A stretch of DNA of 64,000 nucleotides from an uncultured Acidobacteriia bacterium. GTDB lineage: Bacteria > Acidobacteriota > Terriglobia > Bryobacterales > Bryobacteraceae. The translations under genes were made by a program, and so were the position numbers. Below, piece by piece: positions 54,069-64,000 of the stretch; within the stretch, counting starts at the first letter, position 1, and every line of letters starts with the position of its first letter. Below the pieces are notes generated by a model. It was not told the DNA's origin. It did not search any database and saw only the letters and a program-made list of their open reading frames with translations. The stretch is taken from the NCBI GenBank assembly GCA_903907865.1, contig CAIVPR010000141.1, positions 124,001 through 188,000 of the forward strand, written 5' to 3'.

Positions 54069-55269
54069 GGTTCAACGCTTTCTTCAGATCCGGGGCTCCG
54101 AGCGGCAACAGGGGCATGCTCGGGAGGTTACGGAAGAACAGTGCCAGCCACAGGCCGCCGAAACCAATCGGAGACGCGATGTCCAGCCAAGACAGGGCAA
54201 ACTTTGGAGCCTGCCACGAAGTGAAATTCGGCTCAACCAGCGAGTAGACGTCCACGGCATGCACGATCACCAAGTAGACAGCAACCACGCGGATGAACGC
54301 CGGGCTCTTCTTGGCTGGCTGTGAGATCAGCAGCAGAAACGGGAGGACGAAATGGCCGAACAGCAAAATCAAAGCCACCCAGCCCCAGCCGCCATTCCAG
54401 CGCTTGATGTACCAGACGATTTCCGTGGGCAGGTTGCCTGACCACGTGATAATCATCTGCGAGAAGTTCAGATACGCCCACATCATGACCATGGCGAAGA
54501 GGAGCTTGCCCAAGTCGTGGTAGTGCTTCGAGGTCAGCCCGTGGCGGAACGGTTCCTCCTTCTGCAGGAGGGTGGTGTTGGCGATGATAACGGCTAAGGC
54601 GGTAAGCACCCAACCGATGATCATCATGAAGCCATAGATCGTCGAGTACCAGTAGTGCTCCAAGGTCATCAAGTAGTCGACCGAACAGAAGGTCATCAGG
54701 ATAAAGAACGCGAGCACGCCGGGTGCGCTGATCTTTTCCAGCAACGCGGAGACGGCGGTCGACTTCGTCTCGTCTTCCTTCTTGGAGAGCGACGTCAGCA
54801 AACGCGTCATTCCGATCAGGAAGAGCGAGTAGATGACGGTCCTGACCGTCCAAAATGGAAAGTTCAGGTAAAGGTTCTTGGCCTGGATTACTTTGTCGGC
54901 AGTGCCTTCCGGGGTCGTCCACCAGTAGATCTGCTTGCTGAAGATCAGCAGCGGCAAGAAGCCGAAGCACATCACATAAAGGGTCTTGGCACCGGCCTCG
55001 CATTGGCGCCGGATGATGATGCCCCATGCGCCGCCACTCAGGAACTGGGTCATGAGGATCAGCAGGCAGGCAGCACCCGCGCCGAACCACAACCAGAAGC
55101 CGATCAGATACGACCGGAGAAATTGTTCCATGCCGCCGCCGGGAAGAAAAATACCGGCGACAGTCAGGCCGAGGAATATGAGCCCTATGAAGCCCGCGAT
55201 GGACGAGTTCCGCTTCAGCGTCTCGGCGAGCTGCGGGGCGGTTGCGTAGCTATGTTCCGTCGTCGTCAT
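54052..55269 (-). CDS. actF: Alternative complex III subunit ActF
   Basis: A 405-residue integral membrane subunit with about ten helices, related to ActC/NrfD and proposed to form a proton path in the quinol:electron acceptor oxidoreductase. Landmarks are SYLIGFWLWFGAGAACLLIL, FLSGGAWGIIIRRQCEAGAK and MTLEHYWYSTIYGFMMIIGW. It overlaps actE by 4 bases. Confidence 0.93.
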   Translation of the reverse strand: MTTTEHSYATAPQLAETLKRNSSIAGFIGLIFLGLTVAGIFLPGGGMEQFLRSYLIGFWLWFGAGAACLLILMTQFLSGGAWGIIIRRQCEAGAKTLYVMCFGFLPLLIFSKQIYWWTTPEGTADKVIQAKNLYLNFPFWTVRTVIYSLFLIGMTRLLTSLSKKEDETKSTAVSALLEKISAPGVLAFFILMTFCSVDYLMTLEHYWYSTIYGFMMIIGWVLTALAVIIANTTLLQKEEPFRHGLTSKHYHDLGKLLFAMVMMWAYLNFSQMIITWSGNLPTEIVWYIKRWNGGWGWVALILLFGHFVLPFLLLISQPAKKSPAFIRVVAVYLVIVHAVDVYSLVEPNFTSWQAPKFALSWLDIASPIGFGGLWLALFFRNLPSMPLLPLGAPDLKKALNHGRSH

Positions 55270-56006
55270 TTTCTCTCTGGCTGATTCGAAGGCAGCTTGC
55301 TGGCACCCGCGCCAATTGCTCCGGGAACGCCGGCCGGGGTCGCCGGCACGGCCGGGAAGTTGTAGAAATCGGTGTCGTTGGGCACAAGTGGCTGTGAGGC
55401 CTGCGCCGCTTTCATTTCCGCGCTGACCGCCGCGTCGGCACCGGGCACTTTCGCTCGGGCCTCCTGCGGAAGATCGGCGAGCAGTGCGTTTTGACTGTAC
55501 TGCAAAGCCCGGATGTAGGCAGCGATTGCCCAGCGGTCGCGCGGCTGTACCTGCGACGCGTAATTCAGCATCGCGCCGTAGCCGTTGGTGACCACGTCGT
55601 AGATGTGGCCGACCGGGGCGTTGCGGAGCCGGTCAATGTGGTACGAAGGCGGCTGCTTGAATCCGCGCCGAACAATCATACCCAAACCGTTGCCGATCCG
55701 ACCGTGGCAGGGGGCGCAATAGATGTCGTAGCGTTGCTGGCCACGGACGATCACGGTTTTGTCGACCGCAATGGGAAATTCGGTAACATCGTCGCCCTTG
55801 GCGTCCTTGCCGGTGTAGAAGGCGGAATCCTCGTCCAACGTGCCGCGTGCAACCGTGCCTTCAACTTCGGGGCGACCAGCGCGACCGTCGGCGAAGAATT
55901 CACTGCCGCGTTGCGGCTTGTACTTGGGCTGGTCCTGCATATCCTGGCGGCAACCACCGAGGACAAGGCCCAACGAGCCTACCAGAATTGCTGTGCGAAT
56001 TCTCAC
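55266..56006 (-). CDS. actE: Alternative complex III mono-heme cytochrome c lipoprotein ActE
   Basis: 246 residues. The lipobox LVLGGC puts the lipidated cysteine at 19. One c-type heme site, C97-A-P-C-H101 (YDIYCAPCHGRIGNGLG), lies in a class I cytochrome c fold. A Met ligand is likely in the AMLNYASQVQPRDRW region. A Pro/Ala-rich tail follows. It passes electrons from ActA/B toward the oxidase. It overlaps actD and actF by 4 bases each. Confidence 0.94.
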   Translation of the reverse strand: MRIRTAILVGSLGLVLGGCRQDMQDQPKYKPQRGSEFFADGRAGRPEVEGTVARGTLDEDSAFYTGKDAKGDDVTEFPIAVDKTVIVRGQQRYDIYCAPCHGRIGNGLGMIVRRGFKQPPSYHIDRLRNAPVGHIYDVVTNGYGAMLNYASQVQPRDRWAIAAYIRALQYSQNALLADLPQEARAKVPGADAAVSAEMKAAQASQPLVPNDTDFYNFPAVPATPAGVPGAIGAGASKLPSNQPERK

Positions 56007-56551
56007 TCGGCCACCTCTGCAACTTCTTCAGGATTGAGGCTGAGCAGGAACTCCTCGGTGCGGCGACGGTCAAACTTCTCGTCGTCGGACTCGATGCAAA
56101 TGAAAAACTTGCTGCGGGAAGCGTTCACGAAACGCTCCACGTTGAAGACCGGGTGATATGGCGACGGCAGACCGTTCATGATCAACATACTGAAAGCAGC
56201 CGTCAAGCCGCCTATCAGAATGGTGCACTCAAAGGTCACCGGGATGAACATCGGGATGCTAATCAGCGGACGACCGCCGATGTTCAGCGGCCATGCAACC
56301 GCCGAAACCCACGAGGCCAAGCTAAAGCCGCCGATGCAACCGAGAAGGCCACCAATGAGGGTGCACTTCGAAACGCGGTTGTCGTGCAAGTCCATAGCCT
56401 CGTCGAGTTCGTGGAGCGGATAGGGGCAGTAGGCGTCGAACTTCTTGAAGCCGGCCAAACGGGTCTTGCGTGCTGCGGCGACCAGTTCACCCGGAGTCTC
56501 GAACTCCGCCATTAAGCCGTACAATGTTTCCTCTGAAGCGTGGACGCTCAT
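56003..56551 (-). CDS. actD: Alternative complex III subunit ActD
   Basis: A 182-residue, two-helix membrane protein (DUF3341). It has AEFETPGELVAAARKTRLAG with AYCPYPLHELDEAM near the N-terminus, helices at about 63-85 and 100-120, and a cytosolic C-terminal tail. Start ATG 56551 overlaps the actC stop by 4 bases. Confidence 0.92.
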   Translation of the reverse strand: MSVHASEETLYGLMAEFETPGELVAAARKTRLAGFKKFDAYCPYPLHELDEAMDLHDNRVSKCTLIGGLLGCIGGFSLASWVSAVAWPLNIGGRPLISIPMFIPVTFECTILIGGLTAAFSMLIMNGLPSPYHPVFNVERFVNASRSKFFICIESDDEKFDRRRTEEFLLSLNPEEVAEVAE

Positions 56552-57933
56552 TGCGCAACCGGCTCCTTCACGCTGGCTCCGGGCAGGAGCATGCGCAGTT
56601 CGAAGATCGTAATCATGGGAAGTACCCGGACGAACAGGAATATCAGGGTCATGAACAGGCCCAAGGTACCCGTATAGACCGCCCAATCCCAAATCGTGGG
56701 CCAGTACATGCCCCAGCTGGACGGGAGGAAGTCACGGTGGAGGCTGGTCACGACGATGACGAAGCGTTCCAACCACATGCCGATGTTCACGACGATGGAG
56801 ATGCACCACAGGATGCCTGGGCTGGTGCGAATCTTCTTCGACCACAGGAACTGCGGCGTGATGATGTTGCACAGGATCAGCATCCAGTAGAACGGAGCGT
56901 ACGGCCCGGTCATCCGGTTCCAGATCATGAATTTCTCGTAGGTGTCGGCGCTGAAGTAGCCGAAGAAGGCCTCGAAGCAGTAGCCGTAGCCGACGATCAG
57001 CGCGGTAGCCAACGTGACCTTGGCCATGTTGTTCAAGTGGCGCATCGTGATGATGTCATCCAGCCCGTAGAACTTCCGGACCGGGATCATCAGCGTCAAC
57101 ACCATCGCGAAGCCGGAGTAAATGGCACCGGCGACGAAGTACGGCGGGAAGATTGTCGTGTGCCAACCGGGAATGATCGAAACCGCGAAGTCGAAGCTAA
57201 CGACGGTGTGCACCGAGACGACCAAGGGCGTCGCCAGACCGGCGAGAAGCAGTGAAGCCTTTTCGTACCGTTGCCAGTGGCGGGCGGAGTTGCGCCAACC
57301 CATGGACAGGGCGCCATAGATCACCTGCGAGGTCTTCGACTTAGCCGAATCGCGCAGAGTAGCCAAATCGGGCAGGAGACCGACGTACCAAAAGACGGCC
57401 GAAATCGTCAAGTAGGTCGTGACGGCGAACACGTCCCAAAGGAGCGGGCTGCGGAACTGAGGCCACATTGACATTGTATTCGGGATAGGCAGCAGCCAGT
57501 AGGCAAGCCACGGACGACCCGTGTGAAGGACCGGGAACATTCCGGCGCACATGACGGCGAATAGTGTCATTGCCTCGGCGAAGCGGTTGATCGCATTGCG
57601 CCAAGATTGGTTGAGCAGAAGTAGAATCGCCGAGATCAGGGTGCCGGCGTGGCCGATACCGATCCACCAGACGAAGTTGATGATCGCGAAGCCCCAGCCG
57701 ACCGGAATGTTGATACCCCAGACGCCGACGCCCTTCAGGAGGAGCCAAGTTGCGCCCGCCATCAGGTTTTGCAGGACTGCGAACGAAATAAGGAGTCCGA
57801 AGACCCAGCCCAGCGTAATCTTACGCCGGAGCACGATACCGCCGACCTTGTCCGAGACCGAGGCGAGGCTGTGGCTCTCGTCGATTACGGTGCCTACGTG
57901 GATTTGATCAGGTAGTTCGACCGGTTGCGACAT
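56548..57933 (-). CDS. actC: Alternative complex III quinol-binding subunit ActC (NrfD family)
   Basis: 461 residues, about ten helices, NrfD/PsrC family. Motifs are WGFAIINFVWWIGIGHAGTL, FPVLHTGRPWLAYWLLPIPN, and a C-terminal RRFVIVVTSLHRDFLPS-like segment (ERFVIVVTSLHRDFLPSSWG). It is thought to hold the quinol site and deliver electrons to the iron-sulfur clusters of ActB. It lies 3 bases after actB. Confidence 0.96.
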   Translation of the reverse strand: MSQPVELPDQIHVGTVIDESHSLASVSDKVGGIVLRRKITLGWVFGLLISFAVLQNLMAGATWLLLKGVGVWGINIPVGWGFAIINFVWWIGIGHAGTLISAILLLLNQSWRNAINRFAEAMTLFAVMCAGMFPVLHTGRPWLAYWLLPIPNTMSMWPQFRSPLLWDVFAVTTYLTISAVFWYVGLLPDLATLRDSAKSKTSQVIYGALSMGWRNSARHWQRYEKASLLLAGLATPLVVSVHTVVSFDFAVSIIPGWHTTIFPPYFVAGAIYSGFAMVLTLMIPVRKFYGLDDIITMRHLNNMAKVTLATALIVGYGYCFEAFFGYFSADTYEKFMIWNRMTGPYAPFYWMLILCNIITPQFLWSKKIRTSPGILWCISIVVNIGMWLERFVIVVTSLHRDFLPSSWGMYWPTIWDWAVYTGTLGLFMTLIFLFVRVLPMITIFELRMLLPGASVKEPVAQ

Positions 57934-57936
57934 TTG

Positions 57937-60897
57937 TTATCCTTCCCTCCCGTTCGTCAACTCCGGATTGGGGTTTCGGATATCCGCCAAGTAGGTGGTG
58001 CGCGGGCGGGTGTTCAGTTCGCCCAAGAGGGAATAATTTGTTTTCTCGCGCTTCCAGCGGGAGACCTTGCTATTCGGGTCATTCAAGTCGCCGAACGCGA
58101 TGGCTTGGGACGGGCAGGCCGCTTCGCAGGCTGTCACGATTTCGCCGTCCTTCACCCTGCGGTCTTCCTTCTCCGCCGTGATCTTGGCGTAGTTGATGCG
58201 CTGCACGCAGTAGGTGCACTTTTCCATCACGCCGCGGCTGCGGACGCTGACGTCCGGGTTCCGCTGGAGCTTGAGGCTCTCGGTCTCCCAGTCGTTATAC
58301 ATCAGGAAGTTGAAGCGGCGTACCTTGTAGGGGCAGTTGTTGGAGCAGTACCGGGTCCCGACGCAACGGTTGTAGACCATGTTGTTCAGGCCCTCGGCGT
58401 CGTGGGCGGTGGCTGCCACCGGGCAAACGATTTCGCACGGCGCATTTTCGCAGTGGTGGCATGCCACCGGCTGGAAAAAGGCCTCGGGGTTATCCTCGTT
58501 GCCGCTGTAGTAGCGGTCAACGCGGATCCAGTGCATTTCGCGCGTCCTGAGAACCTGCGCCTTGCCGGTGACCGGGATGTTGTTTTCGGCTTGGCAGGCG
58601 ACCACGCAGGTGTTGCAACCTGTACAACCGCTGAGGTCGATGGCCATGCCCCAGGCATAACCCTTGTACTGCCAGTCCGACGGCAGAATTGTGAGGCCCG
58701 AATTCGGGGTCTCGCTCATCTTCTGGATAGCAAGTGGATCCTTTTTCAGATCCTCGGCGGTGGCCGACTTGACCGGCTCGCGGCCTTCCATCGCGAAGTG
58801 GTGCTGGACGGCTGCCAGTTCGAACTTGCCGTCGATCTTCTTGATACTTGCGCCCGCGGCGTAGGTTGCGTTGGCCGAAGTGCGGATCACGTATGCGTTG
58901 AAGCCTGCACCGTTTCCGGCACGACCGGAGCGCGTCCGTCCGTAGCCAAGGCTGATCGCAACCGAACCTTCCGGCTGGCCGGGGACGATCCAGACCGCGC
59001 CTTCGACCTTATTGGAACCGACGGCGACTTCGACGCGGTTTTCGTTCTCCACGCCGAGTTCCTTGGCCGTCTTGGGGCTGATGAGAACCGCGTTGTCCCA
59101 CGTGAGCCGGGTGACCGGGCGGGGCAACTCCTGCAGCCATGCGTTGTTCGAGAAGCGTCCGTCGAGGACGTACGGATCGAAGTGAAACGATACTTGGTGT
59201 CCGGAGGCTGCGGGAGCAGAAGCGGGAGGCAGCTTCGCGTCGGCCTTGACAACGGCAGCGGCGGAATCTTTGATGAAGCCGTCGTGGATGGTGTGCTTCC
59301 ACCACGTTTCGAAATCGGCACCTGCGTGCTTGGCGGCCCAGTATTCGCGGATGATCTGATAACCCGACTTGTCCGGCACCTCGGTAAAGGTTGCCAGAAT
59401 GTCGTGGGCCGATTTCCCGCCGTAAAGGGGGGCGATCAACGGCTGGATGATGCTGATGGTGCCATCGTACGCGGGCGCGTCGCTCCACGTCTCGAAAGCA
59501 TGCGTTTCCGGCAGGAGCCACTGGCAGACTTCGGAGGTCTCGTCATCGTACAGGCCGAGGCGCACGCGCGTCTTTGCCTTCTGGATCGCACCGCGGAGAT
59601 TCAGTTCGTTGGGGGCGTTGTAGACCGGGTTGCCACCGATAATCAAGAGCAGGTCGACTTGGCCAGCGTTCAGATCCTGAACCAATGCCTTGATGTCGGC
59701 GTACTGATCAACCGGTTTCGGCTCAAGCGACGCCGTCAGGACGACCGTCTTGCCGATGTTGTCGAGCGACTGGTTGATGGCGTGGGCGATGGCGTGGACT
59801 TCGGCCGACTGATCCTCGCCGGCGATGACGATGGACTTGCCCTTTGCGCCCAGCAGATCTTTGGCAAGCGCTGCGATGAATTTGTCGGAGGCCGAGCCGC
59901 CTGTAACCGCGCTGGCGAGTGATCGGGCCAAGACCGCGACTTCCGAAGGCTTGACCGCGAGGCGGTGGTCGGCCTTGGAGCCCGTCGAGGTCGGCGTGCT
60001 TTCAATCGCGTAAAATCGGTTGCCGACCGTGCCGCCCTTGCCGCCGCGCTTGGCAGCGAAATCGGAGGCGTACCGGACGCCACCGGGGCCGTTGCCGAGG
60101 AAGTTCGCGTCCAGCGAAACAACCACGTCAGCCTGGTCGAACTTGTAAACCGTGTTGAGGAACTGGCCGAACGCCAGTTGGCTGCCTACCCGGCGACCGT
60201 TGCCGATCGGGTCCCACTGGTGCCACTTGGCCTGCGGGTAGAGCTTGAGGGCGTCCTGGATCTGCGCGTAGAGCGTCGGGGAGGTGACGGTCTCGGTCAG
60301 GATGCTGATCCCCGCGCCACCCTTCGCCTTCTGCTTCTCTAGTAAGGATAGGAACGTCGACAGGAAAGAGGTGTACGACCGAATTTCGCCGATGTAGTTG
60401 ACGGTCTGGAGGCGGTCCGGATCGTACAAGCCAAGCACCGAGGCTTGGGTGGGCACGTCCGTCGAGCCCATGCTCGCCGGGTGCTGCGGGTTGCCTTCAA
60501 CCTTGGTCGGGCGGAATTCGTGGGTCTCGACGAGCACCGGGTTGGCGATGCCGGAAACCGGGAAGGCGGTTGCGTAGAAGAGCGGCTTGCCGGCGAGCAG
60601 CTTTTCCGGCTCGACGACGTAGGGGACGACGTATTCGGTGGGTTGCTTGGTGCAGGCCGAAAGGCCGGCGAGGGCCAGCGACGCACCCATGATCTTCAGG
60701 AAGTTTCGACGACCGGAGTCGTCGCCGTCGGGACCGTCAATCCACTCGGAGGCTTGACGGGGGAACTCGCGGTGCAGGTAGTCCTTGAAACCGTCGGTGG
60801 AGAACAGTTCGTCCAGACTACGCCAGTAACCGGGTCCCTTGGCGCGCTCGAGCCGTTTCTGGATGATTCCCAGATTCAAATCGGTGTGTTCGCTCAT
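57937..60897 (-). CDS. actB: Alternative complex III iron-sulfur subunit ActB
   Basis: 986 residues. A TAT signal (GRRNFLKIMGASLALAGLSA) ends at a lipobox-like cysteine. A molybdopterin-oxidoreductase-like domain (about 75-700) lacks visible cofactor-binding Cys/Ser, as in other ActB. A ferredoxin domain follows with four cysteine clusters (CTGCNTCVVACQ; CHHCENAPCEIVC; CVGTRYCSNNC; CTYC with CEAAC). Start ATG 60897 gives MSEHTDLNLG and overlaps actA by 4 bases. The longer frame from 61068 lies inside actA. Confidence 0.96.
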   Translation of the reverse strand: MSEHTDLNLGIIQKRLERAKGPGYWRSLDELFSTDGFKDYLHREFPRQASEWIDGPDGDDSGRRNFLKIMGASLALAGLSACTKQPTEYVVPYVVEPEKLLAGKPLFYATAFPVSGIANPVLVETHEFRPTKVEGNPQHPASMGSTDVPTQASVLGLYDPDRLQTVNYIGEIRSYTSFLSTFLSLLEKQKAKGGAGISILTETVTSPTLYAQIQDALKLYPQAKWHQWDPIGNGRRVGSQLAFGQFLNTVYKFDQADVVVSLDANFLGNGPGGVRYASDFAAKRGGKGGTVGNRFYAIESTPTSTGSKADHRLAVKPSEVAVLARSLASAVTGGSASDKFIAALAKDLLGAKGKSIVIAGEDQSAEVHAIAHAINQSLDNIGKTVVLTASLEPKPVDQYADIKALVQDLNAGQVDLLLIIGGNPVYNAPNELNLRGAIQKAKTRVRLGLYDDETSEVCQWLLPETHAFETWSDAPAYDGTISIIQPLIAPLYGGKSAHDILATFTEVPDKSGYQIIREYWAAKHAGADFETWWKHTIHDGFIKDSAAAVVKADAKLPPASAPAASGHQVSFHFDPYVLDGRFSNNAWLQELPRPVTRLTWDNAVLISPKTAKELGVENENRVEVAVGSNKVEGAVWIVPGQPEGSVAISLGYGRTRSGRAGNGAGFNAYVIRTSANATYAAGASIKKIDGKFELAAVQHHFAMEGREPVKSATAEDLKKDPLAIQKMSETPNSGLTILPSDWQYKGYAWGMAIDLSGCTGCNTCVVACQAENNIPVTGKAQVLRTREMHWIRVDRYYSGNEDNPEAFFQPVACHHCENAPCEIVCPVAATAHDAEGLNNMVYNRCVGTRYCSNNCPYKVRRFNFLMYNDWETESLKLQRNPDVSVRSRGVMEKCTYCVQRINYAKITAEKEDRRVKDGEIVTACEAACPSQAIAFGDLNDPNSKVSRWKREKTNYSLLGELNTRPRTTYLADIRNPNPELTNGREG

Positions 60898-61559
60898 CGG
60901 TGGCAGGTCCAACAGGTCTCCAGCTTCTGAATATGGTATTCCTTGACCAGTTTCGGGCCAAGTTCCGCCTGCGTCGTCTTCATGTCCGTTTCCGGATCGT
61001 AGCCCATCTTGGTGATGAACTGGCGGGGACGGACGAAGTTCTCGGGATTGCGGTGGCATTCGAGGCACCAGCGCATTTCAAGGTTTGCGTTCTGGTACAT
61101 CAGCGCCATCTTGTCGACGCGCCCGTGGCAGGTTTCGCATCCGACGCCTTTCTTGACGTGGATGCTGTGGTTGAAATAGACGAAGTCCGGAAGGTCGTGG
61201 ACCTTGGTCCACTTGATCGATTCGTTTGTACGGTAGCTCTCGCGGACCGGCTCCAAGGTGGAACTATTGATCCAGATCTGCGAGTGGCAGTTGATGCAAG
61301 TCTTTGTCGGCGGGACCATCGCGTGCTGCGAGTTCTCGACGCCGGTGTGGCAGTAGCGGCACTCGATGCCCATTGAGCCGACGTGGTGGGCGTGGCTGAA
61401 CGGAATAGGTTGTTCCCTCGCGTCGCCTTGGCGCGTCGCATAGGTTGAGTCGGCACTGAGTTCGTACAGTGCTCCGAGGAGCCCACCCAATGCGAGCACA
61501 GTAACGATGATGCTCGTGCGGGCCAGCGAATTCGCGCCAGGTGTGAAGATCTGTGCCAT
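60894..61559 (-). CDS. actA: Alternative complex III pentaheme cytochrome c ActA
   Basis: A 221-residue multiheme cytochrome with one N-terminal membrane anchor (about 15-33). Five CxxCH sites are present: CRYCH, CINCH, CETCH, CLECH and CWTCH, the last at the very C-terminus. Extra His residues (FSHAHHVGSMG, YFNHSIHVKKG) are suitable distal ligands. It heads the operon that runs to ctaF. Confidence 0.95.
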   Translation of the reverse strand: MAQIFTPGANSLARTSIIVTVLALGGLLGALYELSADSTYATRQGDAREQPIPFSHAHHVGSMGIECRYCHTGVENSQHAMVPPTKTCINCHSQIWINSSTLEPVRESYRTNESIKWTKVHDLPDFVYFNHSIHVKKGVGCETCHGRVDKMALMYQNANLEMRWCLECHRNPENFVRPRQFITKMGYDPETDMKTTQAELGPKLVKEYHIQKLETCWTCHR

Positions 61560-62120: not shown

Positions 62121-63563
62121 ATGGCTGAATCACCCATCACTCCCCGCGGCAAGGATTTCGCGGCCTGGTACCAAGACGTTGTCCTCCAAGGCGACATGGC
62201 CGAGCCGGCGGAGATCGTCAAAGGCTGCATGGTCATCAAGGCCAACGGTTACGCGGTCTGGGAGTTGCTGCAGAAGGAACTCGACACCCGGTTCAAGGAA
62301 CTGGGACACAGCAACGTCTATTTCCCGCTCCTGATCCCCCAAAGCTTCTTGAAAAAGGAAGCCGAGCATGTCGAGGGCTTCGCGCCTGAGCTGGCCGTTG
62401 TCACGATTGCCGGCGGCAAGGAGCTGGAAGAGCCGTACGTCATCCGCCCCACATCGGAAACCATCATCGGCCACTTTTTTTCCAAGTGGATCCAGAGTTG
62501 GCGCGACCTCCCCATCCTGGTCAACCAGTGGGCCAACGTCGTCCGATGGGAACTCCGCACCCGCATGTTCCTCCGCACCACCGAATTCCTCTGGCAGGAA
62601 GGCCACACGGCCCATTCCAACCACGATGAGGCGCTTGAAGAAGTGCTCCGCATCCTCGATGTCTATGCCGATGTCGCCGAGAACGTGATGGCCATGCCGG
62701 TCATCAAGGGCGTCAAATCCCGTGCCGAAAAATTTGCGGGCGCGCTGCGGAGCTACTCCATCGAGTCGATGATGCAGAACGGCCTCGCCCTCCAGGCAGG
62801 CACAAGCCACGACCTCGGGCAGAACTTCGGCCGTGCCTTCGACGTCAAGTTCCAGAACAAGGAAGGCCAACTCGATTACGTCTGGCAAACGAGCTGGGGC
62901 GTCAGCACGCGCCTGATCGGCGGCCTGATCATGAGCCATTCCGACGACAAGGGCTTGGTGCTTCCCCCCAGACTCGCCCCCGTCAAAGCCGTCATCGTGC
63001 CGATCTACCGGAAGGACGAGGAGAAGGGCCCGGTGCTGGAAGCCGCCCATCGCATCGCCAAGGAAGTCGGCGCGAAGGTGGACCTCCGCGAGGGCCACTC
63101 CCCAGGCGCCAAATTCTTCCACTGGGAGCGCCGCGGCGTGCCCGTGGTGCTGGAACTGGGCCCGCGCGACATCGCTTCGGGCAACATCGTGCTCAAGCGC
63201 CGCGACACGGGCACCAAGGAGGTACTCGCCCAGACAGACCTGTCGGCGCGGCTGGCGGCGGTTCTCGACGCGATGCAGGGGGATCTGCTGGCGTCGGCCA
63301 AGCAGCGGCTGAAGGACAACACGGTCACGGCGGAATCCATCGGCGAGGTCGAGGAGATCCTGAAGAACGTGACTGCCGAAAAGGGCGGCGGGAAATTCGT
63401 GATGGCGCGGGTGAAAGACGACCCCGCATGCGACGCGCGCCTGAAGGAATTCAAGGCCACGGTGCGGAACATTCCCCTGGTGGACGAGTACGACGGCGGC
63501 GGCAAGTGCATCGTTACGGGCGAGGAAGTGGATCGCCGCGTGGTGATCGCGAAGTCGTACTAA
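62121..63563 (+). CDS. proS: Prolyl-tRNA synthetase, archaeal/eukaryotic-like short form
   Basis: A 480-residue class II aminoacyl-tRNA synthetase charging tRNA-Pro. Motif 2 ([20 protein letters not shown], then GHTAH) and motif 3 ([20 protein letters not shown]) are clear, with [20 protein letters not shown] between. It lacks the editing insertion of the long bacterial ProRS and ends in a Tyr (VVIAKSY), both typical of the archaeal/eukaryotic-type enzyme (ProS type 3). It is transcribed away from the act operon. Confidence 0.96.
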
Positions 63564-63609: not shown

Positions 63610-64000
63610 TTACTTCTTTTCCGCTCCTTGTTGCGCCCGATGCGCAAGGCGGCTACAGGCCTCGTCGGTCGCAGTCGGGTCTATCGCGGTGTTGCCAACT
63701 TCCACAAACGCGATCTTGCCTTCCTTGTCCACCACATAGGTGACGCGGTTGGCCATCCCGTCGGGGCGCAATACCCCGTAGGCTTTGGAGGTTGATCTGT
63801 CGCGGAAGTCGCTCAGGAGGGGGAATGAAAGCTTCAACTGCTCTGCGAAGACTTTCTGGGAGGGAGTGTTGTCGGTACTGAGACCGAAAACCTTCGTTTC
63901 GTTGCCTTCAAATTTTGCGATACCAGCCTGGTACGCGGTGAATTCCTTCGTTCAGCCACCGGTGAAAGCGGCGGGAAAAAACGCCACCACTACCGGATTC
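63610..64000 (-). CDS. Peroxiredoxin (AhpC/TSA family), probable selenoprotein, 5' end beyond window
   Basis: A thiol peroxidase that would reduce hydrogen or organic peroxides. The visible 129 codons after the edge read NPVVVAFFPAAFTGG, then TGA at 63954-63952, then TKEFTAYQAGIAKFEG and an ordinary peroxiredoxin to the stop at 63610. Peroxiredoxins carry PxxxTxxC; here P-A-A-F-T-G-G is followed by UGA in place of the peroxidatic cysteine. The frame is fully open and conserved on both sides. A SECIS-like hairpin lies 16 bases downstream. Selenocysteine is therefore much more likely than a nonsense mutation. The only other Cys seen is near the C-terminus (DEACSRL). It is convergent with proS. 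Confidence 0.85.
63917..63936 (-). promoter_or_regulatory. Candidate bacterial SECIS element
   Basis: Minus-strand GCGTACCA-GGC-TGGTA-T-CGC folds into an 8-pair stem with one bulged U and a GGC apical loop. The loop begins 23 bases after the UGA, within the range known for bacterial SECIS (about 16-37), and has the G expected in the loop. It lies within the coding sequence, as in other bacterial selenoprotein mRNAs. Confidence 0.65.

Follow-up and report, generated by a model that had tools for sequence, protein, structure and literature searches.

A UGA codon probably read as selenocysteine in an AhpE-like peroxiredoxin gene of an uncultured Acidobacteriota bacterium

Does the in-frame UGA codon in a peroxiredoxin gene of an uncultured Acidobacteriia bacterium (family Bryobacteraceae) end the protein, or is it read as selenocysteine (Sec)? 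The gene lies at the edge of a stretch of 64,000 nucleotides, here called the window, which covers positions 124,001 to 188,000 of contig CAIVPR010000141.1 (G000:C141:124001-188000) in a draft assembly of 7.5 Mb, 98% complete and comprising 186 contigs; the codon is at 63954-63952 of the window, on the reverse strand. We are highly confident that this is the gene of an AhpE-like, probably exported peroxiredoxin with Sec as its peroxidatic residue, the UGA being read by way of SelA, SelD, SelB and a hairpin. The proposal of the first-pass annotation, a probable selenoprotein in which UGA is decoded as Sec, is supported by the machinery genes of the genome, by TGA codons in relatives and by selection on the hairpin.

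The gene and its UGA codon

The 3' part of the gene occupies 63610..64000 on the reverse strand and covers residues 56-184 and the TAA stop (63612-63610), base 64000 being the end of codon 55. Read from 64000 to 63610, it translates as NPVVVAFFPAAFTGG-UGA-TKEFTAYQAGIAKFEG...GAEKK-TAA, with TKEFTAYQAG directly C-terminal of the UGA. When the sequence was extended beyond the window end, the complete gene (L019:1665-1111) was found to have 184 residues and to start at an ATG at G000:C141:188164 (L019:1665), 164 bases outside the window and preceded by AAGGAG. The first-pass annotation was right that 63610..64000 belongs to a real peroxiredoxin gene, but these coordinates span only part of it. The UGA (63952..63954) is codon 71 and stands at the peroxidatic position of the PxxxTxxC/U motif, here PAAFTGGU, whose Pro varies in some relatives, in an aligned column of TGA, TGC or TGT. 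It was confirmed in the peroxiredoxin frame on the place of the motif cysteine, and the two flanks, as had been noticed, share one frame and carry family sequence that is conserved on either side of the codon among homologues. The open reading frame (ORF) of about 75 residues expected under ordinary annotation was also recovered (75 amino acids from a TTG under translation table 11, 63610-63837), and routine gene calling would cut the gene short.

With reference to the codon itself, a draft assembly of 186 contigs leaves room for a sequencing or assembly error, or for a recent nonsense mutation in a dead or truncated gene, and the family was examined in this regard. We searched 237 genomes of the same family at a protein match threshold of E <= 1e-15, of which 214 matched; 30 loci and 60 regions (62 hits) among the matches listed were read, with identical assemblies under two names merged. 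The nearest relatives with names are Bryobacterales and Acidobacteriia assemblies, which makes membership of Bryobacterales most likely for the window organism. Column 71 of the 100 distinct loci held TGA in 74, TGC in 25, TGT in 1 and no other codon, so that the exchange of Cys and UGA codons looked for among orthologues was observed in the alignment. TGA is thus shared by 73 other distinct loci; another 29 Acidobacteriota loci have it as well, and so do 37 of the 40 more distant ones. The first-pass annotation had allowed that close relatives might show TGC or TGT here; because many relatives carry TGA at the same column, and carry it oftener than Cys codons, a sequencing error is excluded. 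Since conserved protein sequence also flanks the UGA on each side, the comparative data refute the dead or truncated gene, to which we give practically no credence.

Across a phylum sample of 396 Acidobacteriota genomes, 67 matched at E <= 1e-28, with TGA at column 71 in 64, TGC in 2 and TGT in 1. Some match rows contain an extra TGA, which in the three Cys loci checked (L083, L090 and L100) as well as in L160 and L163 sits at the protein end; on this account column 71 of the 64 phylum genomes was checked, and all 64 have TGA there. No near Cys twin of the UGA copy was found in the window organism among eight further peroxiredoxin matches (E <= 1e-6), all of which have TGC at column 71, the best with 38% identity.

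Decoding machinery and the downstream hairpin

The insertion of Sec through SelA, SelD and SelB is established, and all four genes that the first-pass annotation had proposed to seek, selA, selB, selC (tRNA-Sec) and selD, are present in the genome. The tRNA-Sec scored 69.4 bits against a gathering threshold of 47 (RF01852) and is called tRNA-SeC with anticodon TCA by ARAGORN; selA scored 494.6 bits (cut-off 267.9), selB, on the same contig as the window, 363.7 bits (cut-off 242.25) and selD 363.7 bits (cut-off 125). The selD gene (L022, G000:C38:1803-2726) itself contains one in-frame TGA, reading MEFSRKLTAHVKAAG-U-ASKLSPK, at what is probably the catalytic Sec/Cys site known from E. coli SelD; a hairpin downstream of it has a bare folding energy of -24.3 kcal/mol over 60 bases. 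Formate dehydrogenase alpha gave a single match in the genome at E <= 1e-60; its reading frame is free of stops, and it is not a Sec form.

Comparatively, the UGA form and the machinery occur together across genomes. In the phylum sample selB was above cut-off in 254 of the 396 genomes, namely in 63 of the 64 with the UGA form versus 191 of the 332 others (Fisher p 8e-13, uncorrected for kinship), the sole exception among the former being G501, which is 72% complete. Within the family, 71 genomes with UGA loci read had selB at E <= 1e-70 in 62 cases, weaker only in 6 and none in 3; tRNA-Sec was above cut-off in eight of these nine weak or lacking genomes, the ninth being G072 (80% complete). 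These data make it very likely that the window organism decodes UGA as Sec.

The third line of evidence is the hairpin, the putative bacterial Sec insertion sequence (SECIS), at 63917..63936 on the reverse strand. It is present as first described, starting 16 bases past the UGA with a G in its loop, and its sequence is GCG-UACC-AGGCU-GGUA-U-CGC, with the core stem-loop UACC-AGGCU-GGUA at 63933-63921 and a less conserved lower stem (GCG/CGC). For the hairpin counts, loci of <=50% identity (1 TGA, 5 Cys) were left out and identical 45-base stretches merged, which reduced the UGA genes from 73 to 68 and kept the Cys genes at 21. The stretch +21..+32 after the U reads TACCAGNNNGGT in 63 of the 68 distinct UGA genes versus 2 of the 21 Cys genes; Tyr is TAC in 65/65 and Gln CAG in 66/66 of the UGA genes, with codons mixed in the Cys genes. 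The set was then enlarged with the 29 other Acidobacteriota loci and came to 90 distinct UGA genes after merging, while the 40 loci at greater distance were kept apart since they behave differently. In these 90 genes the four core pairs (+21 to +33) were formed in 353 of 360 cells, against only 78 to 120 of 360 when the 3' side was slid by 1 or 2, and the Cys genes formed 43 of 84 cells. At pair 22-32, 87 genes have A-U and 3 have U-A; at pair 23-31, 72 have C-G and 18 have U-A, counted as sequences and not as events; these both-sided changes accompany amino acid changes (Tyr to Phe, Gly to Asp). The second loop base is G in 90/90 genes, and RNAalifold on the UGA set returned only the four-pair core. 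Judged from this comparison, selection at the RNA level acts on the hairpin of the nearer UGA genes but not on the Cys genes.

Were the UGA read as Trp, or as Cys through a tRNA-Cys resembling selC*, the protein would be a conventional enzyme of Trp or Cys type. PMC7609411 describes variants of tRNA-Cys that decode opal codons in some deltaproteobacteria, and column 71 holds Cys wherever it is not UGA. Against this, the two RF01852 matches above cut-off in the genome are the tRNA-Sec (TCA) and a tRNA-Ser (TGA), though no genome-wide search for other opal tRNAs was made; selA and selD are in the genome; and among near relatives only the UGA genes have retained the hairpin, which fits SelB. We regard such a reading as quite improbable, and prefer insertion of Sec.

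Several observations weigh against the insertion of Sec or limit it. The support is at the level of sequence. The folding energy of the hairpin is unexceptional (z -0.34, with 70 of 200 shuffles folding equally well), and since energy alone is not significant, the hairpin rests on comparison. The three pairs of the lower stem are weakly conserved, forming in 48, 53 and 39 of 68 cells. Among the 37 further UGA loci, mostly of greater distance (37-49% identity), pairing in the core was seen in 80 of 148 cells, with all four pairs in 15 loci, three in 1 and two or fewer in 21; single folds of 34 bases in those 21 gave assorted hairpins, strong and weak, of no common form (bare folds). The exact SECIS form is therefore a trait of the family's nearer members, and the farther Sec forms, if read in the same way, must rely on another hairpin. 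Again, the two incomplete genomes G072 and G501 have the UGA form with neither strong selB nor tRNA-Sec, and of 17 genomes with Cys forms only among the loci read, selB was at E <= 1e-70 in 13, weaker in 2 and absent in 2 (one of the 17, G066, also has a TGA match outside the loci read). The four without strong selB had tRNA-Sec in one case (G099) and not in three. With 13 of 17 keeping strong selB, loss of the machinery does not by itself account for the Cys form. As to Cys170, the second cysteine discussed below, it is present in 31 of the 40 more distant loci and absent or unaligned in 9, and its candidacy as resolving residue comes from conservation.

The Sec decoding genes were also seen to be more widespread in Acidobacteriota (selB in 254/396) than this peroxiredoxin (67/396 at E <= 1e-28). 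Beside selA of the window organism, a Cys-type peroxiredoxin match (L146, G000:C130:30350-30757; FYPKDGTPGCTAQAC) lies on the strand of the selA match and stops 63 bases short of it, and is a possible redox neighbour of selA.

The enzyme and its proposed reaction

The whole protein matches Pfam AhpC-TSA (PF00578) at E 3.4e-33. Fourteen NCBIfam models matched and none was above its cut-off, including peroxi_PrxU (NF040737; 47.3 bits, cut-off 270) and Prx-SUH (NF045827; 39.7, cut-off 298). Its nearest solved relative by sequence is M. tuberculosis AhpE, which is also the nearest fold by Z for the structural model (predicted local distance difference test score, pLDDT, 90), with two Sulfolobus Bcp chains ranked slightly higher by Foldseek; the model indicates that the protein is a peroxiredoxin with the fold of solved AhpC/TSA peroxiredoxins. 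Residue 71, T72, E74, R140 and others are invariant in 43 rows, R140 presumably being the catalytic Arg of peroxiredoxins. Cys170 (TGT, 63655..63657, reverse strand) is conserved in 73/73 UGA rows and 21/21 Cys rows of the nearer set and in 29/29 further Acidobacteriota loci, which makes it a candidate resolving Cys. The N-terminus, MKLFKVAALTFSSVAALMAQQ, resembles a signal peptide by eye, and 89 of 92 rows have a hydrophobic N-terminal stretch of 11 residues (mean Kyte-Doolittle >= 1.6; two more rows are too short), so the enzyme is probably exported.

These residues also bear on whether the UGA serves chiefly as a regulated stop, so that a product of 70 residues predominates and read-through requires abundant selenium. 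PMC4513850 reports recoding of UGA in vivo as only 30-40% efficient and selenium-dependent; on the other side, the larger share of the fold lies after the UGA, together with R140 and Cys170, and all of this is conserved, and a piece of 70 residues would be without the catalytic residue. We find hardly anything to recommend a regulated stop, and favour Sec insertion.

For Sec insertion, we propose that SelA would convert Ser-tRNA(Sec) to Sec-tRNA(Sec) with selenophosphate from SelD, and that SelB, tethered by the hairpin 16 bases past the UGA, would bring the Sec-tRNA(Sec) to the ribosome, where the codon at 63954-63952 would be read as Sec and not as a stop. Sec71 may then attack a hydroperoxide, giving a selenenic acid; the likeliest next step is a selenylsulfide bond to Cys170, to be reduced by a thioredoxin-like partner. 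The sequence itself shows the gene, the place of the UGA, the machinery genes, the retention of the hairpin in nearer relatives and the conservation of Cys170, whereas Sec insertion as such, export, the selenylsulfide step, the substrate and the reductant are inferred.

Sec and Cys forms in the family and known relatives

A tree of 94 rows was made with column 71 masked; it is rooted at midpoint and therefore gives no direction of change. On it the Sec and Cys forms require at least 10 changes, 5 of them forced by well supported branches, and in two genomes Sec and Cys copies lie side by side (L071, G059:C135:16065-17456; L109, G122:C299:59856-61171). Such repeated exchange in one family offers close natural pairs, including the side-by-side copies, for asking what Sec buys a peroxidase. 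We further suggest, with belief and doubt in equal measure, a distinct exported AhpE-like selenoperoxiredoxin subfamily in many Acidobacteriota families. Its members would act in the cell envelope through a selenylsulfide between Sec71 and Cys170 and escape current annotation models, and Sec and Cys would have replaced each other repeatedly in genomes that mostly retained the Sec machinery. If true, this subfamily would be a natural series for asking what keeps Sec in use in an antioxidant enzyme. Very likely, too, standard gene calling would truncate a group of conserved Acidobacteriota redox genes.

Peroxiredoxins with Sec (TxxU) are an established family, and the acidobacterial gene adds to a known kind. 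The remark that they exist in a few bacteria overstated their rarity, as by the counts of PMC5029168 and PMC2398784 they are among the commoner bacterial selenoprotein families in the literature. A 2006 survey lists Sec-peroxiredoxin with 12 (PMC1794560), an ocean survey gives 253 TxxU peroxiredoxin sequences (PMC2398784), and a 2016 survey gives 91 Sec-peroxiredoxins in 78 organisms (PMC5029168). Four selenoproteins of three families were counted for Acidobacteria (PMC1794560) and three known selenoprotein genes listed for Occallatibacter riparius (PMC12013277), in passages that do not name them; the present family may already be among these counts. Among titles and partial text on selenoproteins of Acidobacteria, Solibacter or Bryobacter, no title named this acidobacterial peroxiredoxin. 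Like the bacterial Sec-peroxiredoxin (Prx, pfam00578, TxxU; PMC1794560, PMC2398784, PMC5029168), the present protein belongs to the AhpC/TSA family and has UGA at the peroxidatic PxxxTxxC/U place, homologues with Cys, a hairpin just downstream and a genome with the Sec machinery; unlike it, the protein is AhpE-like, with a probable signal peptide and a conserved Cys170, and falls below the PrxU and Prx-SUH cut-offs. M. tuberculosis AhpE (Rv2238c; PDB 1xxu, 4x0x, 5id2), titled a 1-Cys peroxiredoxin in PDB, has Cys where the present protein has Sec, and its aligned chain is without the N-terminal export segment. PrxU, the Sec enzyme of Eubacterium acidaminophilum, is a thioredoxin-dependent peroxiredoxin, as the present protein probably is, but its model is matched far below cut-off, as given above.

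Outside the phylum, a Candidatus Binatia assembly (L137:4067-4453) has TGA at the same column, LLFYVLDFTPG-UGA-TVQL, and a related Sec-peroxiredoxin seems, from this sequence, to exist there. UGA peroxiredoxins of a second group, more distant from the present one, read TPV-UGA-T[VI]QMPSYE and have no Cys at position 170; they were seen in L215 (G573), L218 (G465), L222 (G310) and L223 (G525), with G310 and G525 carrying them alongside the first kind.

In the window, an Rfam scan gave one tRNA above gathering threshold. The forward-strand ORF at 62121-63563, convergent with the peroxiredoxin gene, is probably prolyl-tRNA synthetase-like, and a reverse-strand run of ORFs at 55266-61559 resembles an alternative complex III (Act) cluster, its putative members being a multihaem cytochrome c, an Fe-S/molybdopterin-like subunit, an NrfD-like membrane protein, a DUF3341-like protein and a cytochrome c.
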